A stretch of DNA of 64,000 nt from an uncultured Lachnospiraceae bacterium (GTDB lineage Bacteria > Bacillota > Clostridia > Lachnospirales > Lachnospiraceae), in assembly GCA_944381405.1 (NCBI GenBank), contig CALWLA010000002.1, forward strand, positions 1-64,000, given 5' to 3'. Position 1 is the stretch's first letter. Every line of letters starts with the position of its first letter. Positions 23,803-36,700 of this stretch are shown here, in pieces. The translations under genes and the position numbers were made by a program. The notes under the pieces were generated by a model. It searched no databases. It saw nothing but the letters and a program-made list of their open reading frames with translations, and had not been told where the DNA came from.

Positions 23803-24249
23803 TCAGGTGGACATTTCCTTCAGGCAGTGGTCCCGGAGGAACAGGATCGCTTCCCGGTATCCTGCAAAGCCCATGCCGTAAAAGGTCTTCAAGCAGGCAG
23901 CCGAGATATAGGAATGATGCCGGAATTCCTCCCGTTCATAGATGTTGGACAGATGCACCTCGCAGGCAGGGAGGTTTACCGCCTTCAGGGCATCCAGGAT
24001 GGCCACGCTGGTGTGGGTGTAGGCCGCCGGATTGATGACGATGCCGTCCATGACCCCGTAGGCCTTCTGGATCTCGTCCACGATGGCGCCCTCGTGGTTG
24101 GACTGGAAGAAGCTGGCTTCGATTCCTTCCGCTTCGCATACCTCCCTGAGATAGTTCAGAAGGCCCTCATAAGTCTCTGTTCCGTAAATGTTCTTTTCCC
24201 GGATCCCCAGCATGTTCAGATTGGGTCCGTTGATGATGAGCAGTTTCAT
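23803..24249 (-). CDS. aroQ: Type II 3-dehydroquinate dehydratase
   Basis: The 148-residue cytoplasmic enzyme removes water from 3-dehydroquinate, the third step of the shikimate pathway. Type II signatures are the N-terminal INGPNLNMLGIRE, with the flexible-loop Arg and the catalytic Tyr in NIYG, the FFQSNHEGAIVD segment, NPAAYTHTSVAI, and EVHLSNIYEREEFRHHS with the catalytic His. Length matches the dodecameric type II family. It is the last gene of the aromatic operon, 17 bases after aroEK. I see no convincing terminator in the 100 bases after it. Confidence 0.95.
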   Translation of the reverse strand: MKLLIINGPNLNMLGIREKNIYGTETYEGLLNYLREVCEAEGIEASFFQSNHEGAIVDEIQKAYGVMDGIVINPAAYTHTSVAILDALKAVNLPACEVHLSNIYEREEFRHHSYISAACLKTFYGMGFAGYREAILFLRDHCLKEMST

Positions 24250-24266: not shown

Positions 24267-25571
24267 TTAAAGCTTTCCTGTTTCCTCCGAAAAGGCGGAA
24301 AAGCGGCGGAAAAGCTCCGCAGCGCAGGCCTCCGGGCTTTCGTCGTTTTTGACGGCTTCCGCCGCAAAGGCCCGGTAAAGGGGCATCCGTTCCTCATACA
24401 TGCGCCGCAGGGTCTCCTGGTCCTTTGACAGGGGCCTGCCCTCGGTGCCAAGCTGCTGGAGATCCCGCTCTATGAGATACACTCTGCCGTTCTGCCACAG
24501 GGCTTCCCGGTTTTCCTGCCGCAGCACCGTGCCGCCGCCGCAGGCGATGACGATTCCCCGCTGCTTTCCCACCTCCCGGCATACAAGGCTTTCCTTATCC
24601 CGAAAGCCCGCCTCTCCTTCTTCCGCGAAGATCTCCGGGATGCTTTTTCCATAGCGCTTTACGATCTCCTCATCCAGATCCACAAAGGGGCTTCCGAGGG
24701 CCTCTGCCAGAAGCCTTCCGATGCTGGTCTTACCGGAGCCTGGCATGCCTGTGAGCACCAGATTGCACATATCTGAAAACAGGCTTCTGTAGATGCGCCG
24801 GATCTCCTGCCGGTCCTGCTCCACGTACGCCCGGAGGCTGAACGCCTCCTCCGCCTTGGCAAGCAGCGCCTCCTCCCCCATAAAGAAAAGATCAGAGGCA
24901 AACTTGGCCTGAGCTACCAGCATCAGAAGGCCGTTTCCATAGGGGATCCCCAGTTCCCTGGCCTCCAGCAGAAGTGGCGTCATCAGGGGATTGTAGATCA
25001 CGTCCAGCACCCCTTCGCAGTCAGGGAACTCCCGAAGCCGGATGAGCCTTTCTCCATTTTTCGGATACATCCCAACCGGTGTGGTGTTGAGGATGATCTG
25101 GCTGTCCCGGTACCGGCAGAGGTCCTCATAGGTCACCTCTCCCTGGCGGGAAACCACCGTGATCCGCGCTGCGCCGCTATCCTTTGCCACCGCCTGGGCT
25201 GTCAGGGAGGTTCCGCCGCTGCCCAGGATCAGCACCTTTTTCCCGGCAAAGGAGATTCCTGTCTCCGCCGCAAGAAAGGCAAGGCCCATATAGTCCGTGT
25301 TGTCTCCGTAAAGGCTTCCGTCGGAAAGCTTTACCACCGTATTGACGCTGCCGATGGCCGCCGCCCGCCGGGAGATCACTGCCAGGAAGGGAATCACTGC
25401 CTTTTTATAGGGGATGGTCACATTGATGGCGGAAAAATCCCGCCTTTCCATAAACGCCGCAAGCTGCTCCTTGGGAACGGAAAAAAGTCCGTAATCCTGG
25501 TTCCCCAGCTGCTTATGAATCAGCGGGGAAAAGCTGTGAGACAGCTTTTCCCCTAAAAGTCCGTACTTCAT
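24267..25571 (-). CDS. aroE-aroK: Shikimate dehydrogenase-shikimate kinase fusion
   Basis: The 434-residue bifunctional protein covers two consecutive steps. Residues 1 to about 255 are shikimate dehydrogenase: SHSFSPLIHK at the substrate site, NVTIPYK with the catalytic Lys56, and NTDYMG with Asp93. The NADP-binding GSGGTSLTAQAV follows near 117. Residues about 268-430 are shikimate kinase: Walker A GMPGSGKTS (275-283), DLDEEIVKRYG, GFRDKES and the CGGGTV loop, ending with a lid around EGRPLS. Order is AroE then AroK in one frame with no stop, so the fusion is real and not an overlap. It lies 3 bases after pheA. Such fusions occur in several gut Clostridia. Confidence 0.95.
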   Translation of the reverse strand: MKYGLLGEKLSHSFSPLIHKQLGNQDYGLFSVPKEQLAAFMERRDFSAINVTIPYKKAVIPFLAVISRRAAAIGSVNTVVKLSDGSLYGDNTDYMGLAFLAAETGISFAGKKVLILGSGGTSLTAQAVAKDSGAARITVVSRQGEVTYEDLCRYRDSQIILNTTPVGMYPKNGERLIRLREFPDCEGVLDVIYNPLMTPLLLEARELGIPYGNGLLMLVAQAKFASDLFFMGEEALLAKAEEAFSLRAYVEQDRQEIRRIYRSLFSDMCNLVLTGMPGSGKTSIGRLLAEALGSPFVDLDEEIVKRYGKSIPEIFAEEGEAGFRDKESLVCREVGKQRGIVIACGGGTVLRQENREALWQNGRVYLIERDLQQLGTEGRPLSKDQETLRRMYEERMPLYRAFAAEAVKNDESPEACAAELFRRFSAFSEETGKL

Positions 25572-25574
25572 AGG

Positions 25575-26717
25575 TCAGATCATCTCCGCATAGCTGCCCA
25601 GGAAGGTGAACTGATCGAACTCGTCGTCGAACTCTCCCAGAAGCTTTGTGACCTTGGGGTCGTAGATGCTGGCGTTCAGATCAAAGTAGAACAGGAACTC
25701 GAAGTCCTTGCCGGGCATGGGACGGCTCTCCAGCTTGGTGAGGTTCAGGCCCAGAGAGGAGAACCGGGACACCACGTTATAAAGGGTGCCGGGCTTGTGG
25801 GCGATGGAGAACATCATGCTGATCTTGTCCGCGCCGGGATAGATCTCCATGGATTTGGAAATACAGATGAAGCGGGTATAGTTGTTGTCGTTGTTCTGCA
25901 CCGTATTGAAAAGCACCGACAGGCTGTAAAGCTCCGCGCAGTTTTTGGAGGACAGGGCTGCGAGGTCGGTCCGGTCGCTTTCCGCCACCATCTTTGCCGC
26001 AGCGGCGGTGTTCTCGCAGACGGTGATCTTCACGCCCTTCAGGCTCTTTAAGAACTCGCTGCACTGATCCAGGGCCTGCTGATGGGATACGATCTCCCGG
26101 ATATCTGACAGCTTCACGCCCTTTTTCGCCAGCAGGTTGTGGTCGATCCGAAGCTTGATGCTGCGGACGATGTAGAAGTTGTGCTTTTTCATCAGGTCAT
26201 AGACCTCATTGACGGAACCTGCGGTACTGTTTTCGATGGGCAGGATGCCGTATTTGCAGAGGCCGCTTTCCACTGCCTGGAACACGCCGGAAAAGCTGTT
26301 GAAATACATGATGTTGGGCAGGGAAAAGAGCTTGTCGCAGGCGTTCTGGGAATAAGCGCCCTCCACGCCCTGACAGGCCACCACCGCCCTCTGGGGGAAT
26401 ACCTTGTCGGTGTCCTGGATGGAGGCTTCGATCTGATCCTTCAGTCCGGAGGCAGCGCCGATCAGCTGCCGCTGGTAGGAACGGCTCACGTCGAACAGGG
26501 TCCCGTAAAGCACCCGGATATAGCTCTCCATCTCCTTCCCCGCCAGATCGCAGACGTGATTGATCACATCCCGTTCCCTGGTGCGGTCAAACACCGCCAT
26601 ATGGTTCTCCTTTTTATAGGTTGCGATCTCCTTGGACAGCTCCATCCGCTTTACGAAAAGGGCGGTCAGCTGCTCGTCGATGCTGTTGATGTTGTTTCTG
26701 GCTTCCTGTAAATCCAT
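25575..26717 (-). CDS. pheA: Chorismate mutase/prephenate dehydratase
   Basis: The 380-residue P-protein converts chorismate through prephenate to phenylpyruvate. Residues 1-90 are an AroQ-type chorismate mutase helix bundle (INSIDEQLTALFVKRMELSK). Residues about 110-285 are prephenate dehydratase with ACQGVEGAYSQNA and GILPIENSTAGSVNEVYD; NNYTRFICI stands at the usual catalytic THIRF-like motif. Residues about 295-370 are an ACT domain (KPGTLYNVVSRFSSLGLNLT, then ESRP), the known Phe feedback site. The ATG at 26717 follows AGGAGAACAAGGAA. A 22-base tandem repeat separates it from aroC upstream. Confidence 0.95.
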   Translation of the reverse strand: MDLQEARNNINSIDEQLTALFVKRMELSKEIATYKKENHMAVFDRTRERDVINHVCDLAGKEMESYIRVLYGTLFDVSRSYQRQLIGAASGLKDQIEASIQDTDKVFPQRAVVACQGVEGAYSQNACDKLFSLPNIMYFNSFSGVFQAVESGLCKYGILPIENSTAGSVNEVYDLMKKHNFYIVRSIKLRIDHNLLAKKGVKLSDIREIVSHQQALDQCSEFLKSLKGVKITVCENTAAAAKMVAESDRTDLAALSSKNCAELYSLSVLFNTVQNNDNNYTRFICISKSMEIYPGADKISMMFSIAHKPGTLYNVVSRFSSLGLNLTKLESRPMPGKDFEFLFYFDLNASIYDPKVTKLLGEFDDEFDQFTFLGSYAEMI

Positions 26718-26858: not shown

Positions 26859-27995
26859 TCATTCCGGTCCGCGGGACTTGCCCATATCCTCCGCCAGCAT
26901 GTCCCAGAGGGCGATGGAAAGGGCCGCCTCCATGCAGGGCACCGCTCTTGGCAGGATGCAGGGATCGTGACGGCCCTGAATCACCAGCCGTTCCTCCTTC
27001 CCCTTGGAAAGGGAAACGGAGTCCTGCTCCTTTGCGATGGAGGGGGTGGGCTTTACCGCTGCCCGGAACAGAAGGGGCATGCCGGTGGTAAGTCCTCCCA
27101 GGATGCCTCCGGCCCGATTGGTCCTGGTGCGCACCTGTCCTGCCTCAAGACAATAAGGGTCGTTGTTTTCGCTTCCAAAAAGGGAGGCGCAGCCAAAGCC
27201 CTCGCCGAACTCCAGCCCTTTTACCGCCGGGATTCCGAAAACGATCTGGGCGATGCGGTTTTCCACCCCGTCAAACATGGGCTCCCCTAGCCCGCAGGGC
27301 AATCCGATGGCGGCGCATTCGATGATTCCCCCTACGGAATCTCCCGCTGCCTTTGCGGCGGCGATCTCCGCCAGCATGGCGGCGCCTGCCCCATCCTCCC
27401 TTACCGGGAACGCCTTTGTTCCCGGCTCCAGAAGCGCCTCTTTTGTGAGCTGTACCGGGTCGAAGGGCTGATCCCAGACGCCATGGACCGATGCAATGTG
27501 TGCCCCCACATAGATGCCCCGTTTTTCCAAAAGCTGCCTGCACAGGGCCCCGGCAAAGCACAGGGGCGCCGTGAGCCTGCCGGAAAAATGTCCGCCGCCC
27601 CGGATATCGTGAAAGCTTCCGTATTTCACATAGGCGGGATAATCCGCATGGGAGGGCCTGGGCACGTCCCGCAGGGACTCGTAGTCCCGGGAGCGCTGGT
27701 CTTTGTTCCAGATCACTGCGCAGATGGGAGCTCCGCAGCTATGGTACCACCTGGGCCCGGAAGGAGGATCAGCCTGCTCCGGCAGGAGGCCGGACAGGAT
27801 CTCCGGCTCGTCCCCTTCCTTCCTGGCGGTGGAAAAGGCCTTGCCTCCCGGGGCTCTCCGCTGCATGAACCGCAGCACCTCTTCCATGTCAAAGCGCTCT
27901 CCTGCGGGGATCCCGTCGATCACCACCCCGATTCCCTTGGAATGAGACTGACCGAAAATAGAGACCCGCAGGTTTTTTCCGTATTCAGACGACAT
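26859..27995 (-). CDS. aroC: Chorismate synthase
   Basis: The 378-residue FMN-dependent enzyme turns EPSP into chorismate. Family signatures are [21 protein letters not shown] at the N-terminus, [24 protein letters not shown], the [12 protein letters not shown] loop with the catalytic His, and [17 protein letters not shown]. Length is normal. It overlaps aroA by 11 bases, and pheA follows 141 bases downstream after a repeat array. The enzyme needs reduced FMN; no dedicated flavin reductase is adjacent. Confidence 0.95.
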
Positions 27996-29211
27996 CTGCT
28001 CTTCCTCCTAGCTTCCGAAAATCCTCGAAAAATCCCGGATAGGATTTTTCCACTGCCTCTGCGCCCCGGATCACCACCGGCTGCTGACAGCCGCTGGCCA
28101 GGACCGCAGCGCTCATGACGATGCGGTGATCGTTGCAGCCATCCACAAAAGCGCCGCCCGGAAGCCCTTCCCGGCCTTCCACCAAAAGTCCGTCGGGATA
28201 CTCCTGCACCTGTCCCCCCAGGGCTTTGATGAGGGCGGTCATGGCGGAAAGCCTGTCGCACTCCTTCAGCCGGAGCCGTTCTGCATGGATGAATCGGGTG
28301 CTGCCTGGTCTTAAGGCCGACAGGGCGGAAAGCACCGGCAAAAGGTCCGGGATGCCGGAGACGTCGATGATCCGCTCCTTTGGTTCCGCTCCGAACTGCG
28401 CCTGCAGAATATCCTTCACCGCCCGGTCCCCCTGGAGGGATTCCTGCCGGAGGCCCGTCACCTGGATCCGGTTTCCTTCTATGGCGTCTGCGCAGAGCCA
28501 GAAGGCTGCGTTGGACCAGTCTCCCTCCGCCTCATAGCTGCCCGGCGTCCGGTAGGGCTCCCCCTCGTAATAAAAGTCCTCCCCTTCCCTGCGGATCCGT
28601 ACCCCAAAGCGGCGCATGGTATCGATGGTCATGTCCACATAGGCCTCCGACTGCAGCTTTGTGGTCAGATGCAGGCTGGAGGGCCCGGAAAGCAGGGGAA
28701 ATGCCAGGAGAAGGCCCGTGATGTACTGGGAACTGATGTTTCCCGGAAGGGAAAAACGCCCAGGCTTAAGGCCCCCTTTGGTCTCCACCGGCAGGGCGTC
28801 TCCCAGCAGGATTGCCCCGTGCTGCCGCAGCAGGGAGCACAGCACCTCAATGGGCCGTTCCGGAAGCTTCCCGGCTCCCGTAAAACGGCAGTCCTTCGGG
28901 AGGGCCGCCATCACCGGCAGCAAAAACCGCAGGGTGGAGCCGCTTTCTCCGCAGAAAAGCTCCGCCGCCCCTTTGTCTCTGCCGATGGGAGCCACCTGGA
29001 TCCGCTCCTGCTCCCGCAAAAGCTGCACCTGCGCCCCCGCCGCCTGCAGGCAGGCAGCCGTGGCTTCGATGTCCTTGGAAAATACGTTGCAGCGGACCGT
29101 CGTGGGGCTGTCCGCCAGGGCTCCGCAGATCAGGGCCCGGTGCACGTCGGATTTGGAGGAGATGGCGGGGAGGCTTCCGGAAAGCCTGCCCGGATAAACG
29201 CGCATGTCCAT
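27985..29211 (-). CDS. aroA: 3-phosphoshikimate 1-carboxyvinyltransferase (EPSP synthase)
   Basis: The 408-residue enzyme adds the enolpyruvyl group of PEP to shikimate-3-phosphate. Visible signatures include SKSDVHRALICGALAD (an SKS-type substrate loop), GESGSTLRFLLPVMAAL, a GAGKLPERP segment, SSQYITGLLLAFP, and LRLKECDRLSAM with DGCNDHRIVMSAAVL near the C-terminus. It is slightly shorter than the usual 425-430 residues. It follows aroB by 3 bases and overlaps aroC. The Met at codon 3 is an alternative start. Confidence 0.95.
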   Translation of the reverse strand: MDMRVYPGRLSGSLPAISSKSDVHRALICGALADSPTTVRCNVFSKDIEATAACLQAAGAQVQLLREQERIQVAPIGRDKGAAELFCGESGSTLRFLLPVMAALPKDCRFTGAGKLPERPIEVLCSLLRQHGAILLGDALPVETKGGLKPGRFSLPGNISSQYITGLLLAFPLLSGPSSLHLTTKLQSEAYVDMTIDTMRRFGVRIRREGEDFYYEGEPYRTPGSYEAEGDWSNAAFWLCADAIEGNRIQVTGLRQESLQGDRAVKDILQAQFGAEPKERIIDVSGIPDLLPVLSALSALRPGSTRFIHAERLRLKECDRLSAMTALIKALGGQVQEYPDGLLVEGREGLPGGAFVDGCNDHRIVMSAAVLASGCQQPVVIRGAEAVEKSYPGFFEDFRKLGGRADVV

Positions 29212-29214
29212 GGC

Positions 29215-30276
29215 TTACTCCTTCCTGAGGGCCGCTTCCGCAAGGCCCGGAAGCTCTGCCACCGGCACCGGATACAGCCTGCAGCGGCCGATCTCCTCCG
29301 GCAGGATCAGGGTGATCTCATCCCCCCGGCGCTTTTTATCCGAAAGCGCAGTCTCTGCCAGCTCCTTTGCGGAAAAATCGGTCTCCGTTGGAAGGGAAAG
29401 CCCTCTGAGGGTCCTTTGGATCCGTTCCACCGTTTCTTTTTTACAAAGGCCCAGGTGCAAGCTGATTCTCGCCGCCAGCACCGTGCCGATGGCCACCGCC
29501 TGGCCGTGAGTCACGGTAAAGCCGCTGCGTTTTTCGATGGCGTGGCCCAGGGTATGCCCCAGGTTCAGAAGCTGCCTCTGTCCCCGGTCGAATTCATCTG
29601 CCATCACCACATCCCGCTTGATGGCGACGCATTCCTGGATGACCGCCTCCAGCTCTTCCTTTACCCGTCCCTTTTCAAAGACCTCAAAGAGCCCCGGAGA
29701 GGCCAGGATGCCGTATTTCACCGCTTCCGCGCAGCCGTCCGCAAAGACCGTCTCCGGCAGGGTGGAAAGGGTGCTGTAGTCGCAGAGCACAAGCCTTGGC
29801 TGCCAGAAGGCCCCTGCCAGATTCTTGCCGCTTTTAAGGTCGATGCCCGTCTTTCCTCCCACGGAGGAATCGATGGCCGCCAGGAAGGTGGTGGGAATCT
29901 GCACAAAGGAGATGCCCCTCAGATAGGTGGCTGCCGCAAAGCCCGCCATATCTCCCGTCACGCCGCCACCAAGGGCCACCACCAGATCCGTTCTGGTGAG
30001 CTGCTCCCTGGCCAGAAACTCCAGCATGTCCAGATAGGTTTTTGCATTTTTGGAGGCCTCTCCGTTTGGAAAGACAAATCTGCATACGGAAAATCCCGCC
30101 TGTAAAAGGGCCTCCTCCGTCTTCCTGCCATAGAGGCCCTCCACGATATCGTCGGTGATCAGCGCTGCCCTGCAGGGCTTTACCGCCTGCCGGATATAGG
30201 CTCCCGCCTCCGGCAGCAGATCTTTTCCGATCAGTACCCGGTAGGGGGTGCTGGTATTGACTTCAACTGTTTTCAT
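29215..30276 (-). CDS. aroB: 3-dehydroquinate synthase
   Basis: The 353-residue NAD-dependent, metal-dependent cyclase makes 3-dehydroquinate from DAHP. Visible are the NAD-binding GGGVTGDMAGFAAATYLRG, the SVGGKTGIDL loop, CAEAVKYGI, and LNLGHTLGHAIEK with metal-binding His residues. Length matches the family. It overlaps tyrA by 14 bases and aroA follows 3 bases later. Confidence 0.95.
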   Translation of the reverse strand: MKTVEVNTSTPYRVLIGKDLLPEAGAYIRQAVKPCRAALITDDIVEGLYGRKTEEALLQAGFSVCRFVFPNGEASKNAKTYLDMLEFLAREQLTRTDLVVALGGGVTGDMAGFAAATYLRGISFVQIPTTFLAAIDSSVGGKTGIDLKSGKNLAGAFWQPRLVLCDYSTLSTLPETVFADGCAEAVKYGILASPGLFEVFEKGRVKEELEAVIQECVAIKRDVVMADEFDRGQRQLLNLGHTLGHAIEKRSGFTVTHGQAVAIGTVLAARISLHLGLCKKETVERIQRTLRGLSLPTETDFSAKELAETALSDKKRRGDEITLILPEEIGRCRLYPVPVAELPGLAEAALRKE

Positions 30277-31156
30277 AGCTGTCGATTCCTTCCTTGCATT
30301 CCCGGCCTTCCTTCAGCAGCCGGAACAAAAGCTCCCGGTCCCGCCGCCGGAGGGCGTCCCCGTATTCTGAAAGCCGCTGGATGATGCCCTCCACCTCCGG
30401 CAAAAGGCTGTCCGCATTGTCTAGGAACAGCTCCGTCCACATGGTCTCGTTCAGCCGGGCCACCCTGGTGAGATCCTTGTAGCTGCCTGCGGAAAAACCG
30501 TAATGCTCCCTGGAGGCAGGGCTTTTCACATAAGCGCTGGAGACCACATGGGCCAGCTGGGAGGTAAAGGCGATGACCCGGTCATGCTCTTCGATGGTGG
30601 AAAGCTTGATCTCCTCAAAACCCAGGGCCAGGAAAAAAGCCTCTGCGCCGGAAAGGGCGCTTTCATATGCCTGCTTAAGCTCCGGATCCGCTTCCGCTCC
30701 CTCCGGCTCCGAGGGCACCAGGATCATGGAGGCTCCGGAAAAAAGCTCCGGGTCCGCGTTGCGGTAGCCGCTTTTTTCCTTTCCCGCCATAGGATGTCCC
30801 CCGATGTAGAAGATCTCCTGGCAGGCAGCTCCCCGTTCCTTCAGCAGGGCCGCAATGGGCTCCATCACCGCCCGCTTTACGCCGCAAAGATCCAGGATCA
30901 GGGCGCCCCTTGACAGAAATCCAAGCTGCTGCCGGAGATATTCCACCGCCGCAGCCGGATACAGGGCCAGAAGCAGCATATCGCATTCCGAAAGCGTTTC
31001 CCCGGTCAGCACCCCGTCGATGCCGCCGTCGGAAAGGGCCTCCTGCAGCACCCCTTCATCCAGGTCAAAGCCGTATACCCGGTGGTCCGTATGGGACTTG
31101 ATGGCCTTCGCCATGGAGCCGCCGATGAGGCCCAGTCCCGCGATGCCTACCGTCAT
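30263..31156 (-). CDS. tyrA: Prephenate dehydrogenase
   Basis: The 297-residue enzyme oxidatively decarboxylates prephenate to 4-hydroxyphenylpyruvate for tyrosine. The N-terminal Rossmann motif is GIAGLGLIGGSMAKAI, and the GGHPMAGKEKSGY segment holds the conserved His. TSQLAHVVSSAYV and GSYKDLTRVARLNETMW are in the helical C-terminal dimerisation domain. There is no ACT domain, so it may not be directly inhibited by Tyr. It overlaps aroF by 4 bases and aroB by 14 bases. Confidence 0.93.
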   Translation of the reverse strand: MTVGIAGLGLIGGSMAKAIKSHTDHRVYGFDLDEGVLQEALSDGGIDGVLTGETLSECDMLLLALYPAAAVEYLRQQLGFLSRGALILDLCGVKRAVMEPIAALLKERGAACQEIFYIGGHPMAGKEKSGYRNADPELFSGASMILVPSEPEGAEADPELKQAYESALSGAEAFFLALGFEEIKLSTIEEHDRVIAFTSQLAHVVSSAYVKSPASREHYGFSAGSYKDLTRVARLNETMWTELFLDNADSLLPEVEGIIQRLSEYGDALRRRDRELLFRLLKEGRECKEGIDSYENS

Positions 31157-32205
31157 GACGCCTGGGCTCCTTCCTCAGCCGCTCCTGCGATGTCGATCTC
31201 CTCCTTGCCCACAACCTTCAGGATGGGGTTCAGGGCCCTGGTCAGGCTGGCAAAGGCCTCCGGGGTAATGGACTGGGGACCGTCGCACTTTGCATGAGGC
31301 GGATCGTTGTGCACCTCGATGATGAGGCCGTCCGCGCCTGCTGCCGCTGCCGCCAGGGACATGGGCCGTACCATCCGGGCGATGCCGGTGGAATGGCTGG
31401 GATCCACGATGATGGGCAGATGGGACAGCTCCTTGATCACCGGGATGGCGGACAGATCCAGGGTGTTTCTGGTATAGGTCTCATAGGTACGGATGCCCCG
31501 CTCGCAGAGGATCACCTGCTCGTTTCCCCCTGCCATGATGTATTCTGCGCTCATGAGCAGCTCCTGGATGGTGTTGGCCAGGCCCCGCTTCAGGAGAATG
31601 GGCTTTCTCAGATGCCCCAGTTCCTTCAGAAGCTCGAAGTTCTGCATGTTCCGGGCGCCTACCTGGATCACGTCCACATCCTCAAAAAGGGGCAGGTGGG
31701 CGGCGTCCATGATCTCCGTCACGATGGGGAGGCCCGTGCGCGCCTTTGCCTTCAGGAGGAGCTTGAGCCCCTCCTCCCGCATGCCCTGGAAGGCGTAGGG
31801 AGAGGTCCTGGGCTTGAAGGCTCCGCCCCGCAGCATGGTGGCGCCCGCCTTTTTTACCTCCTCTGCGATGGTGCAGATCTGCTCCTCCGACTCCACGGAA
31901 CAGGGGCCTGCGATGACCTGGAAATAGCTTCCACCGATCTTGTTTCCATTGATGGAAATGACCGTATCGTCAGGATGGAACTTTCTGTTGGCGTTCTTGA
32001 AGGGCTCCTGGATCCGCTTTACGGACTCCACGAACTCCAGTCCTGACAAAAGGTCCTCGTCCACCACCGAGGTATCTCCCACTAGGCCCAGGATGGTCTG
32101 GTACTTTCCTACGGACAAATGGGTCTCCACCCCCATGGACTTCAGCCATGTAATGAGATTGTCTACCTGATTCTGCTGTGTGTTTTCCTTGAGTACGAGT
32201 ATCAT
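31153..32205 (-). CDS. aroF: DAHP synthase, type I-beta with regulatory N-terminal domain
   Basis: The 350-residue enzyme condenses PEP and erythrose-4-phosphate, the committed step of the pathway. Residues 1 to about 75 form a small ferredoxin-like/ACT-like domain (MILVLKENTQQNQVDNLITW), which in Thermotoga-type enzymes mediates Tyr/Phe feedback inhibition. The barrel domain has VIAGPCSVES with the metal-binding Cys, RGGAFKPRTSPY, GARNMQNF, ILLKRGL, CERGIRTYE, and DPSHSTG with a metal-ligand His. The ATG has GGAGG 7 bases upstream. It is the first structural gene after the attenuator at 32233-32454, so both enzyme activity and transcription may respond to Tyr/Phe. Confidence 0.95.
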   Translation of the reverse strand: MILVLKENTQQNQVDNLITWLKSMGVETHLSVGKYQTILGLVGDTSVVDEDLLSGLEFVESVKRIQEPFKNANRKFHPDDTVISINGNKIGGSYFQVIAGPCSVESEEQICTIAEEVKKAGATMLRGGAFKPRTSPYAFQGMREEGLKLLLKAKARTGLPIVTEIMDAAHLPLFEDVDVIQVGARNMQNFELLKELGHLRKPILLKRGLANTIQELLMSAEYIMAGGNEQVILCERGIRTYETYTRNTLDLSAIPVIKELSHLPIIVDPSHSTGIARMVRPMSLAAAAAGADGLIIEVHNDPPHAKCDGPQSITPEAFASLTRALNPILKVVGKEEIDIAGAAEEGAQAS

Positions 32206-32232
32206 GATCCTTCCTCCCTGCTTCTGTCAAAG

Positions 32233-32265
32233 AAAAAAGCTCCGCAGGTGTTTTCCTGCGAAGCT
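32233..32265 (-). terminator. Attenuator terminator of the aromatic operon
   Basis: AGCUUCGCAGG (32255-32265) and CCUGCGGAGCU (32238-32248) form an 11-pair stem with one G-U and the loop AAAACA, followed by six U residues. It lies between the leader peptide stop (32301) and the aroF ATG (32205). A competing pairing uses 32248-32259, which would break this stem. Confidence 0.9.
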
Positions 32266-32300
32266 CAGATTTCCGTACAGATAAAATGTGAGTTTTTTGA

Positions 32301-32393
32301 TTATGCAGCAAAACACGAATAAACCTTACCATTTTCAAAGGTAAAGTAAAAATAAAAGTAATATGCAGCTGCTGCATTTACGTTTACGTTCAT
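32301..32393 (-). CDS. Aromatic leader peptide controlling attenuation
   Basis: A 30-codon ORF with GGAG 8 bases before the ATG at 32393. It encodes MNVNVNAAAA, then YYFYFYFTF at residues 11-19, and ends VYSCFAA. Five Tyr and five Phe make up a third of the peptide, which is the hallmark of a leader peptide that senses charged tRNA-Tyr and tRNA-Phe. Codons 6-8 contain ATGCAGCA (32370-32377), the exact complement of TGCTGCAT (32303-32310) at the end of the ORF. The latter can instead pair with the terminator arm. A ribosome stalled at the Tyr/Phe codons would mask the first segment and free the second to act as antiterminator. One that reaches the stop would cover the second segment and let the terminator form. 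Mechanism is inferred; the sequence elements are seen. Confidence 0.85.
   Translation of the reverse strand: MNVNVNAAAAYYFYFYFTFENGKVYSCFAA
32303..32316 (-). promoter_or_regulatory. Antiterminator segment of the aromatic attenuator
   Basis: GUGUUUUGCUGC (32305-32316) can pair with GCAGGAAAACAC (32248-32259), 11 of 12 positions matching, which excludes the terminator stem. The overlapping UGCUGCAU (32303-32310) can pair perfectly with 32370-32377. The three alternatives match the segment 1:2, 2:3, 3:4 layout of classical amino-acid operon attenuators. Confidence 0.75.
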
Positions 32394-32414
32394 GTGTTTC
32401 GCTCCAGAATAAAT

Positions 32415-33713
32415 TTAACGGGTTGAGTATACCACTTTTTTTTCTCGATGTAAAGTGGAAAAGACCTCCCGGGCGATTTCTCTCCAGGCGGACAGGGAGG
32501 CCCTGGCCTTTTCCGGAGAAACGCAGTAGGCGATGCGGACATAGCCGCTGCCCTTAAAGGAGCTCCCAGGCACCACCAGCACCCGATGTCTCTTGCAGAT
32601 CTCCACGAACTGCCGCTCCTCCACCGGCGTCTTCATCCACAGGTAAAAGGCTCCTGCAGGGAAAACGCAGGTAAAGCCCAGTTCCGTAAGGGCCTCGTAA
32701 AGGGTCCTGCGGTTTTCGTCATAGCTTTCCACCGCAGGGGAAAGGTCCGCCTCCACCGCCTCCGCCACAGTCTTCTGCATGAGGGAGGGGGCGTTCACAA
32801 ATCCGCTGATGCGGTTGGCGATGACGCAGGCGTTCCGGAGCTCCTCCGCCCCGGACACCTCTCCGGGAATCAGCAGATAGCCGATGCGCTCTCCCGGCAG
32901 GGACAGGGACTTGGAAAAGGAATAGCATACCGCCGTGTTATGGTAAAAGGGCGTCACAAAGGGCGCCGTATGGCCGTCGTAGCAAAGCTCCCGGTAGGGC
33001 TCGTCGGAGATCAGCAGGATCTCCGTGCCAAAGGCCTTTTCCGCCTGGGAAAGCACCCTGGCGATTCCCTTCAGCGTCTCCTCCCCGTAGATCACCCCGG
33101 TGGGGTTGTTGGGGCTATTGATGATCACCGCCTTGGTCCGCTCCGAAAGCTTTTTCTCCAGCTCGGAAAGGTCCGGCAGGAAGGTTTCCGCCTCTGTCCG
33201 CACCTCCCGGAGGATGCCGCCGTAATTCCGGACGTAAGCGCCGTACTCCATGAAATAAGGGGTAAAGACGATCACCTCGTCGTTGGGATCCAGGATGGCC
33301 TTCAGCAGGATATTGAGGCCGCAGGCAGCTCCCACGGTCATGATCAGATCCTCGCCGGAAAAGGCCGTTCCATAGCGGCGGTTCAGGTTTTCCGCAAGGC
33401 GCTGCCGCACCTCCGGAAAGCCGGCGTTTGGCATATAGCCGTGGAGCACCACCGGGTCCTCCGTGGAAAGGAGCCTCATGATGGCGTCCTTCACCGCCTC
33501 CGGCGCAGGAACGCTGGGGTTTCCCAGGGAAAAATCAAAGACCTGGTCCGCCCCGTATTCCCGCTGCATCCGAAGGCCCTCCTCGAACATGGCCCGGATG
33601 GCGGAATTGTTTTCCATGAAGGGCCTCATCCTTTCGCTGATGAGGCCCGCTCCCTGACGGTCGTTGTTCCGCAGGATGTTTTTGTTGGTCACATAGATGT
33701 CTTTCAGCTTCAT
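32415..33713 (-). CDS. Class I/II PLP-dependent aminotransferase
   Basis: A protein of about 432 residues from the ATG at 33713 (MKLKDIYVTNKN). An upstream reading from 33848 would overlap purL and is rejected. The fold-type I core begins near MRPFMENNSAIRAMFEEG and DFSLGNPSVPAPEAV. INSPNNPTGVIY, SDEPYRELCYDG and SFSKSLSLPGERIGY carry the PLP-contacting Asn and Asp and the Schiff-base Lys. It belongs to the aspartate/aromatic aminotransferase superfamily. It sits between purL and the aromatic operon, so it could transaminate phenylpyruvate and 4-hydroxyphenylpyruvate, or could be an aspartate or alanine aminotransferase. Sequence alone does not settle substrate. Its end carries the aro promoter. 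Confidence 0.85.
   Translation of the reverse strand: MKLKDIYVTNKNILRNNDRQGAGLISERMRPFMENNSAIRAMFEEGLRMQREYGADQVFDFSLGNPSVPAPEAVKDAIMRLLSTEDPVVLHGYMPNAGFPEVRQRLAENLNRRYGTAFSGEDLIMTVGAACGLNILLKAILDPNDEVIVFTPYFMEYGAYVRNYGGILREVRTEAETFLPDLSELEKKLSERTKAVIINSPNNPTGVIYGEETLKGIARVLSQAEKAFGTEILLISDEPYRELCYDGHTAPFVTPFYHNTAVCYSFSKSLSLPGERIGYLLIPGEVSGAEELRNACVIANRISGFVNAPSLMQKTVAEAVEADLSPAVESYDENRRTLYEALTELGFTCVFPAGAFYLWMKTPVEERQFVEICKRHRVLVVPGSSFKGSGYVRIAYCVSPEKARASLSAWREIAREVFSTLHREKKVVYSTR
32426..32454 (-). promoter_or_regulatory. Promoter of the aromatic operon
   Basis: TTTACA (32449-32454) and TATACT (32426-32431) are 17 bases apart. Both boxes lie inside the last codons of the aminotransferase gene that ends at 32415. 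Transcription would start about 25 bases before the leader peptide ATG. Confidence 0.8.
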
Positions 33714-33756
33714 GTCTGTTCCGGCCCAGGCGTTCCTGGGCCGTTTCCTTGGCGAT

Positions 33757-36700
33757 TTATGAGAAATATTTCTTGGCTGCCCGGAACATGCCCAGGTCAT
33801 AATTGCCCGGCACGTTCTTGTAAAGCTGGCTGCCGATACGCTCCGCATGGCCCATCTTGCCGAATACCCGGCCGTCCGGGGAGGTGATGCCCTCTACCGC
33901 GCAGATGGAACCGTTGGGGTTGTAGCGGATGTCCATGGTGGGCTCTCCCGTAAGGTCTGCGTACTGGGTTGCGATCTGTCCGTTTTCCGCAAGCTTCCGG
34001 ATCAGCTCCTCAGAGGCCAGGAAGCGTCCCTCTCCGTGGGAGATGGGCACTGCGTACACCTCACCCGGCTTCGTATCCATGAGCCAGGGGGACTTGTTGG
34101 AGGCGATCCTCGTATAAACGATCTTGGACTGGTGTCTTGCGATGGTATTGAAGGTCAGGGTCGGACAGCTTTCGTCCGTATCCATGATCTTTCCATAGGG
34201 TACAAGTCCCAGCTTGATCAGGGCCTGGAAGCCGTTGCAGATACCGCACATCAGGCCGTCCCGCTCCGAAAGAAGCTTCATGACCGCCTCCCGGATCCGT
34301 TCGTTCCGGAAGAAGGAGGTGATGAACTTTGCAGAGCCGTCGGGCTCGTCGCCGCCGGAAAAACCGCCGGGGATGAAGATGATCTGGCTGTCTGCGATCT
34401 CCCTTGCCACCTCATCCACGGATTCCCGGATGTCCGCCGCAGTCAGGTTCCGGATCACGGCGATCCTGGGGCTCAGGCCTGCGTCCGCCACAGCCTTTGC
34501 GCTGTCGTATTCGCAGTTGGTGCCCGGGAAGGCCGGAATCAGCACCTTGGGCGCCCCATGCTTTACAAGGGGTGTGGGCCACGTCTCAGCCCTATAGGTA
34601 AAGGCCGTCTCCTTGGTGCCCTCTCCTGCCGGCCGGTCCTTGCTCATGTTGCAGGCAAATACGTCCTCCAGCTTGTTTTCATAGCCGGAAAGCAGCTCTC
34701 TTAAGGAAAGGCTTTCCTCATTGTAGCGGATGACGCCGCTTTCCTCGGTCCAGCCCAGATCCCGCACCTCAAAGCCGCCCTGCTTGACCGCATCGCAGCC
34801 GTAGATCAGATCTGCGGTCTCCGGGCAGTCGGTCTCCACGATAAAGGAGCCGTAGGCGTATCCGAAGATGTCCTCTACGGAAAGGCTCTCCGCAAAGCGG
34901 AAGCCGATCATATTGCCGAAGCACTGCTTCATCACCGCCTCTGCAGGTCCGCCCATGCAGGGGGTGTAGACAGAAAGCAGCTTCTTGTTGCCGATGGCCT
35001 TGTGGATGGTGGCGTAAAGGGCTGTCAGGGAGCTTATCTCCGGAAGCCCGTTCTCCAGATACCTGGGTCTTAACCACAGCACCCGGCTGCCCGGCTGCTT
35101 GAATTCCGGAGACAGGATATGCTCCGCCTGTTCCGTGGTGATGGCAAAGGACACCAGGGTAGGCGGTACGTCCAGCTGTTCAAAGCTGCCGCTCATGCTG
35201 TCCTTGCCGCCGATGGCCGCGATGCCGAGATCCAGCTGGGCAGAAAATGCTCCCAGCAGTGCGGAAAGGGGCTGTGCCCAGCGCTTGCCGTCGTGGCCCG
35301 GTTTCTTGAAATATTCCTGGAAGGTGAGATAAACGTCGGAGAACTCCGCGCCCTCCGCCACCAGCTTGGAGACGGATTCCACCACTGCCAGGTAAGCCCC
35401 TTTGTAGGGGTCTTTTTCAGCGATAAAGGGATTGTAACCCCATGCCATCACGGAGCAGGTGTCCGTATGACCCTTTTCCACGGAAACCTTGGCCGCCATG
35501 GCCTGGATCGGGGTCAGCTGATATCTTCCGCCGAAGGGCATCAGGATGCTGCCTGCGCCGATGGTAGAGTCAAAGCGCTCGGAAAGTCCCTTTTTGGAGC
35601 AGATGTTCAGGTCCTCGGAAAGTGCCTTCAGGTTTTCCGCAAAACCGCCGGAAACCTGCTTTCTGATATCGGAGGGAGCCTCCGTTTCGATGGTGATATG
35701 CTTTTCCGCGCCGTTGGAGTTCAGGAATGCGCGGCTCAGATCCACGATGTTCCTGCCGTTCCAGCTCATGACGAGCCTGGGCTCCGCCTGGACCCTTGCC
35801 ACCACCGTGGCCTCCAGGTTTTCTGCCTTTGCCAGGGCCATGAAGGCCGCCTCGTCTTCCGGCGCTACCACCACTGCCATACGCTCCTGGGATTCGGAGA
35901 TGGCAAGCTCCGTGCCGTCAAGGCCCTCGTACTTTTTCGGCACCTTGTTCAGGTCGATGGAAAGGCCGTCCGCCAGCTCACCGATGGCCACGGAAACGCC
36001 GCCTGCACCGAAGTCGTTGCAGCGCTTGATCATGCGGGAGGCCTCCGGATTACGGAACAGACGCTGAAGCTTCCGCTCCTCCGGCGCGTTACCCTTCTGC
36101 ACCTCTGCGCCGCAGGTCTCGATGGAATGGAGGTTGTGGGCCTTGGAGGAACCGGTGGCGCCGCCGCAGCCGTCCCGGCCTGTGCGGCCTCCAAGAAGGA
36201 TCACGATATCCCCCGGAGCCGGACGCTCTCTGCGGACATTCTTTGCGGGAGCCGCCGCCACGACTGCGCCGATCTCCATGCGCTTTGCCGCATAGCCGTC
36301 ATGATACAGCTCGTCCACGATGCCCGTGGCAAGGCCGATCTGGTTGCCGTAGGAGGAATAGCCTGCCGCCGCCGTGGTGACAAGCTTTCTCTGGGGCAGC
36401 TTTCCGGGAAGGGTCTCGGAAAGGGCTCTGGTGGGATCCGCCGCACCGGTAACGCGCATGGCGTGATAAACATAGGATCTTCCGGAAAGGGGATCTCTTA
36501 TGGCGCCGCCGATACAGGTGGCCGCGCCGCCGAAGGGCTCGATCTCCGTAGGATGGTTATGGGTCTCGTTTTTGAACAGCAGGAGCCAGTCCTCTGTTTC
36601 TCCGTCCACGTCCACCTTGATCTTTACAGTGCAGGCGTTGATCTCCTCGGATTCGTCCAGCTTGTCCAGCTTTCCTTCCTTCCGGAGGAATTTTGCCGCC

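Follow-up and report, generated by a model that had tools for sequence, protein, structure and literature searches.

The window, by which we mean the whole stretch of 64,000 nucleotides analyzed here, derives from an uncultured Lachnospiraceae bacterium and carries on its minus strand an aroF-tyrA-aroB-aroA-aroC-pheA-aroEK-aroQ gene series, which constitutes the route to tyrosine and phenylalanine:

31153..32205, minus strand: aroF, DAHP synthase
30263..31156, minus strand: tyrA, prephenate dehydrogenase (top match 147 bits, under the curated cut-offs)
29215..30276, minus strand: aroB
27985..29211, minus strand: aroA
26859..27995, minus strand: aroC
25575..26717, minus strand: pheA, chorismate mutase-prephenate dehydratase
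24267..25571, minus strand: aroE-aroK fusion, shikimate dehydrogenase and shikimate kinase in one ORF
23803..24249, minus strand: aroQ, type II dehydroquinate dehydratase

Since most neighbors in this operon overlap or are at most 20 bases apart, the genes are likely co-transcribed. A search of the genome of the window species (99% complete) returned no match to trpE, and therefore tyrosine and phenylalanine are probably the main amino acids that this genome derives from chorismate; the species itself is probably a tryptophan auxotroph.

Between aroF and a PLP aminotransferase gene (32415-33848) lies a leader region with the following features, which were read from the sequence unless another basis is given:

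32449..32454, minus strand: -35 hexamer TTTACA
32426..32431, minus strand: -10 hexamer TATACT, preceded by TG (extended -10); the pattern TG.TA...T is kept in the genus
32402..32405, minus strand: Shine-Dalgarno-like GGAG, 8 nt 5' of the ATG
32394..32403, minus strand: ribosome-binding region AGCGAAACAC, which by folding can pair with segment 2 (32307-32316) as a possible lock
32301..32393, minus strand: leader peptide ORF of 30 codons, MNVNVNAAAAYYFYFYFTFENGKVYSCFAA
32337..32363, minus strand: putative regulatory Tyr/Phe codon run YYFYFYFTF, residues 11-19
32370..32377, minus strand: segment 1, ATGCAGCA, partner of 32303-32310 (swap test, below)
32323..32347, minus strand: inner hairpin, ACTTTACC (32347-32340) with GGTAAGGT (32330-32323), within the 1:2 arm (from folding; kept in the genus)
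32303..32316, minus strand: segment 2, GTGTTTTGCTGCAT, partner of segment 1 or segment 3 (sequence and swap test)
32248..32259, minus strand: segment 3, GCAGGAAAACAC, antiterminator with segment 2, or part of the 5' arm and loop of the terminator (swap test)
32237..32266, minus strand: intrinsic terminator hairpin (3:4)
32233..32238, minus strand: terminator T run, six T

The two hexamers are separated by a spacer of 17 nt and form a sigma-70-type promoter with an extended -10, and the first seven codons of the YYFYFYFTF run all encode tyrosine or phenylalanine. A preliminary description of this DNA, made from its letters alone, had reported the promoter, the GGAG, the 30-codon ORF with its run at residues 11-19 and the terminator before aroF, and each of them proved exact to the base. 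The three mutually exclusive pairings that it proposed were likewise recovered: segments 1 and 2 pair through ATGCAGCA (32377-32370) and TGCTGCAT (32310-32303) at 8 of 8 positions; segments 2 and 3 pair through GTGTTTTGCTGC (32316-32305) and GCAGGAAAACAC (32259-32248) at 11 of 12 positions, with one G.G; and the terminator arms AGCTTCGCAGG (32265-32255) and CCTGCGGAGCT (32248-32238) pair at 11 of 11 positions, through 10 Watson-Crick pairs and one G.U. The predicted fold of the leader RNA is much stronger than that of shuffled sequences (z -5.8).

To place the leader in its genus, we analyzed 25 of its genomes. A strong AroF match was present in 18 of these, and 12 (including the window species) form a single clade with 78-100% AroF identity. 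All 12 clade members keep the TTTACA hexamer (invariant), the -10 hexamer, the leader with its Tyr/Phe run in frame, and the terminator. Up to and within the run, gaps occur in threes and substitutions are TAT/TAC or TTT/TTC changes or exchanges of Tyr for Phe. Downstream of the run the frame shifts, and segment 2 reads F-A-A (stop) in the window species and V-C-C (stop) in L084-L086. What is conserved in the run is therefore its codons, and in segment 2, with its two reading frames, the RNA and not the peptide. The 2:3 pairing is also present in the 12 members, with 0-1 mismatch and with compensatory changes (GUG/CAC, GG/CC, AG/CU). The preliminary description had proposed this comparison and named relatives lacking the ORF or the alternative pairings as evidence against an attenuator; judged by this criterion, the relatives compared do not refute the attenuator. 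Six further members of the genus (L093-L098), with a more distant AroF (53-67%), have other leaders or, in the case of L098, none, and their aroF seems to have been replaced.

These patterns also bear on how the ribosome would be halted. A hydrophobic, aromatic-rich peptide could in principle cause nascent-peptide arrest of the TnaC or Erm kind, in response to free tyrosine or phenylalanine, another metabolite or a drug, and the same RNA switch would serve such an arrest as well as codon-specific stalling. However, outside its Tyr/Phe content the peptide is not conserved, different genus members encode its C-terminus in different frames, and the Tyr and Phe residues vary in position and order, all of which make arrest by the peptide itself very unlikely.

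Beyond the genus, we examined 233 usable aroF upstream regions, taken from 80 named loci of a public genome collection together with a same-family sample and a class sample, and scored an ORF as Tyr/Phe-rich when it contained at least 6 Tyr/Phe within 12 codons. Where AroF was at least 60% identical to that of the window, such an ORF was present in 147 of 198 regions, and was followed by a terminator in 135 of 198. The combination of Tyr/Phe leader and terminator was found in 13 of 1584 dinucleotide shuffles (0.8%) and in 2 of the 35 regions with AroF below 60% identity. No other residue pair was enriched like Tyr/Phe in ORFs upstream of aroF, when related regions were compared with shuffles. 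A Tyr/Phe leader with a terminator thus precedes aroF more often than chance would produce. About a third of the AroF relatives received no leader-plus-terminator call, and some of these missing calls trace to the thresholds applied, to contig ends or to leaders of another design. Cultured carriers of the leader include Sporobacter termitidis, Aminicella lysinilytica, Yanshouia hominis and Angelakisella massiliensis.

A non-redundant set of 119 leaders has a median length of 31 codons, with the terminator starting a median of 35 nt after the stop codon and ending a median of 42 nt before aroF; the terminators themselves differ widely among relatives. On this set we performed a swap test, in which the pairing energy of a segment with its own partner is compared to that with the partner from another species. 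We chose it over column-wise covariation within the genus because there is little variation among the closest species and indels occur in segments 2 and 3. For the 2:3 pairing, own partners gave -13.66 kcal/mol and swapped partners -10.07 kcal/mol (z -16.3), and for the 1:2 pairing the values were -14.98 and -11.87 kcal/mol (z -12.2), with 0 of 10,000 permutations as low in either case; these z values are not exact probabilities, as species relatedness is still contained in them, and the control region is equally affected. In that control, the region upstream of the ORF showed no preference for its own segment 3 (z +1.3). Its own-partner preference toward the segment-2 region was weaker than those of the two pairings (z -3.4). 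The complementarity kept between diverging partners points to selection on the mutually exclusive 1:2, 2:3 and 3:4 pairings.

It could still be supposed that the terminator is unregulated, for instance as the end of a separate short transcript, and that the ORF is there by chance. This supposition is contradicted by the shuffle, other-residue and swap controls and by an anatomy conserved across the class, and we consider it extremely improbable.

Some short leaders (L008, L018, L031, L054, L061 and others) have the segment-2 motif TTTTGCTG just 3' of the stop codon, outside the ORF; the motif inside the ORF and the motif after the stop are two layouts of one switch.

Taken together, we assign a probability of about 0.9 to control of the Tyr/Phe operon by a classical ribosome-mediated transcription attenuator of the trp/phe-leader type. 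The evidence consists of the anatomy, its conservation, the complementarity between diverging partners and the predicted folding, and from it we infer translation of the leader, stalling of the ribosome, termination in the cell and the amino acids sensed. Under this model, polymerase would start at the promoter at 32454-32426 and a ribosome would translate the 30-codon leader. A shortage of charged tRNA-Tyr or tRNA-Phe would stall the ribosome on the mixed Tyr/Phe codons, where it would cover segment 1, leaving segment 2 to pair with segment 3 as an antiterminator, with read-through into aroF. When both charged tRNAs are plentiful, the ribosome would reach the stop codon and sit on segment 2, so that 3:4 would form and transcription would end at the T run. 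If the leader is not translated, segment 2 would be held by segment 1 or, in the window species, by the ribosome-binding region, and termination would be favored. Since the run mixes Tyr with Phe codons, shortage of either amino acid should open the operon, as in an OR gate.

The proposed switch was modeled by folding the transcript to the end of segment 3 under a 30-nt ribosome mask. Across the 119 leaders, the number of predicted antiterminator pairs was 9.5 with the ribosome on the first Tyr/Phe codons, 5.5 with no ribosome and 3.7 with the ribosome at the stop codon, and the stalled position gave more pairs than the stop position in 106 of 119 leaders. This folding response, along with the comparative evidence from the run, the terminator and the 1:2 and 2:3 complementarity, strongly supports the trp/phe-type attenuation logic put forward in the preliminary description.

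The leader of the window species has in addition a fourth competing pairing, absent from the preliminary description, in which AGCGAAACAC (32403-32394) is complementary to GUGUUUUGCU of segment 2 (32316-32307) over 10 pairs. When the leader is folded without constraints, this is the dominant pairing. The control value of z -3.4 given above is a weak trend in the same direction across the class. In the fold model of this species, stalling alone gives no gain in antiterminator (4.5 versus 4.5 pairs), and stalling with the ribosome-binding region covered, as a following ribosome could do, gives 13 antiterminator pairs. With that region covered, a stall at any of the nine codons of the run yields 10-13 pairs, which in the model is the geometry of a Tyr/Phe OR gate. 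The folding suggests a possible lock of segment 2 by the ribosome-binding region, which may also promote termination in the absence of leader translation.

Leader-peptide attenuation has long been considered a proteobacterial and actinobacterial device, and Firmicutes have been thought to rely on T-boxes and proteins. T-boxes are indeed present in 22 of the 25 genus genomes, and the genome of the window species has them before pheST, thrS, a metN-type transporter gene and, with a match below cut-off, a trpX transporter gene (L236-L239 for this set), so that control of aroF by a T-box or by a metabolite riboswitch might be supposed. Against this, no Rfam family reached its gathering score in the window and none was significant in 31900-32700. 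The T-box covariance model (RF00230), which finds matches elsewhere in the same genome, had no match in the window; the amino-acid leader families of Rfam likewise gave no match at gathering score in the window and none at E 5 in 31900-32700; and the T-box core motif occurred in 2 of the 233 aroF upstream regions. The probability of a T-box or riboswitch on aroF is accordingly close to nil. A loose-threshold search of the leader region returned a trpB-motif match (20 bits against a gathering score of 59), which was set aside.

Both kinds of tRNA-charging sensor coexist in this genome, and the leader is the one found on the two-product operon. In the four trpE-bearing members of the genus (G007, G014, G015 and G021; L240-L243), a T-box match below the Rfam cut-off lies directly 5' of trpE, suggesting that in these species the tryptophan branch may use a T-box and the Tyr/Phe branch the leader. 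A T-box reads one specifier codon, and a mixed leader can read two. Reading of two codons by a mixed leader may explain why a leader was chosen for a two-product operon.

Whether the attenuator senses one amino acid or two can be approached from codon use. The runs of the 119 leaders contain 473 Phe, 456 Tyr and 13 Trp codons, with Tyr and Phe both present in 117 of 119 leaders, and adjacent Tyr/Phe codons alternate in 371 pairs and repeat in 216. One alternative holds that the same attenuator senses a single amino acid, namely phenylalanine, and that the Tyr codons are tolerated near-equivalents. This is the behavior reported for the AroR leader of Corynebacterium glutamicum aroF, which has a Phe-Tyr-Phe stretch and on which Phe supply was effective and Tyr supply was not (Neshat et al., 2014, as reported in PMC11802643 and PMC4046766). 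In line with this alternative, an underdispersion test for a maintained Tyr:Phe balance per leader was negative, the split being no tighter than random exchange and hence consistent with free exchange of the two codons. On the other hand, Tyr codons are about as many as Phe codons and accompany them in nearly every leader, neighbors alternate more than they repeat, and the operon carries tyrA besides pheA. We therefore regard a one-input attenuator as rather unlikely, and sensing of both tyrosine and phenylalanine as plausible and probably the case.

Several known systems resemble this attenuator. According to its published description, AroR shares the Phe and Tyr leader codons before a DAHP synthase gene and ribosome-mediated transcription attenuation, and differs in being actinobacterial, with one Phe-Tyr-Phe stretch and a Phe response, whereas the clostridial leaders have 7-10 mixed Tyr/Phe codons, precede a whole Tyr and Phe operon and are spread across the class. 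The uORFC-13-1 motif, a computational candidate with 24 representatives from Acholeplasma and environmental sequences, also combines a promoter, an upstream ORF with Phe codon(s), a terminator and a downstream aroF; compared by its published description, it has at least 1 Phe codon and no Tyr run is described for it (PMC8632094). The E. coli pheA (pheL), pheST and trp leaders share the 1:2, 2:3 and 3:4 logic, the codons for the product amino acid and the terminator before the first gene, but each senses a single amino acid, Phe or Trp, and their sequences are unrelated. For E. coli aroF, an attenuator sensing Tyr-tRNA has been suggested (cited in PMC2659441). In Firmicutes, leader attenuators have been predicted for hisS and hisZ (PMC2965389) and for his operons, including that of C. 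difficile (PMC9413887), and mutants support one for ilv-leu in S. aureus (PMC5794164). These have a leader peptide, a terminator and an antiterminator in place of a T-box, and differ in that they concern other amino acids and genes and few lineages each, whereas the clostridial aroF device spans much of its class.

The preliminary description had suggested that such a device, and a single peptide sensing both Tyr and Phe, may be undescribed. As a statement on Tyr/Phe leaders this fails as written, given the reports on AroR and aroF in C. glutamicum (PMC11802643, PMC4046766). As a statement on the device it stands in part: we found no description of the clostridial aroF device in the literature searched, which was largely open-access, but leader attenuators as such are known in Firmicutes, as cited above. 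What is new is the class-wide clostridial extent, the near-equal use of Tyr and Phe codons and the possible lock of the Shine-Dalgarno region on segment 2. Probable leader-peptide attenuators stand before aroF in much of this major class, side by side with T-boxes in the same genomes.

A broader reading would make these leaders a class-wide clostridial attenuator family, occasionally moved to other phyla together with aroF, that acts as a true two-input OR gate on the charging of tRNA-Tyr and tRNA-Phe, governs the whole Tyr and Phe operon and has segment 2 locked by its own ribosome-binding region, with T-boxes serving single-amino-acid decisions. We give this combination somewhat less than even odds.

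In L223, L224, L226 and L229 a leader of different design (e.g. RFTGFWYPRYFMAWGF) lies upstream of aroF; it contains Tyr and Phe codons and frequently Trp codons as well, and might sense each of the three aromatic amino acids. Finally, metagenome-assembled genomes (MAGs) assigned to other phyla encode a close AroF behind a Tyr/Phe leader, most with a terminator, including members of the Lentisphaerota (L017, L021, L045, L058), Planctomycetota (L016) and Spirochaetota (L048, L081); aroF and the attenuator may have been transferred jointly to these phyla, or the MAGs may be mis-binned.
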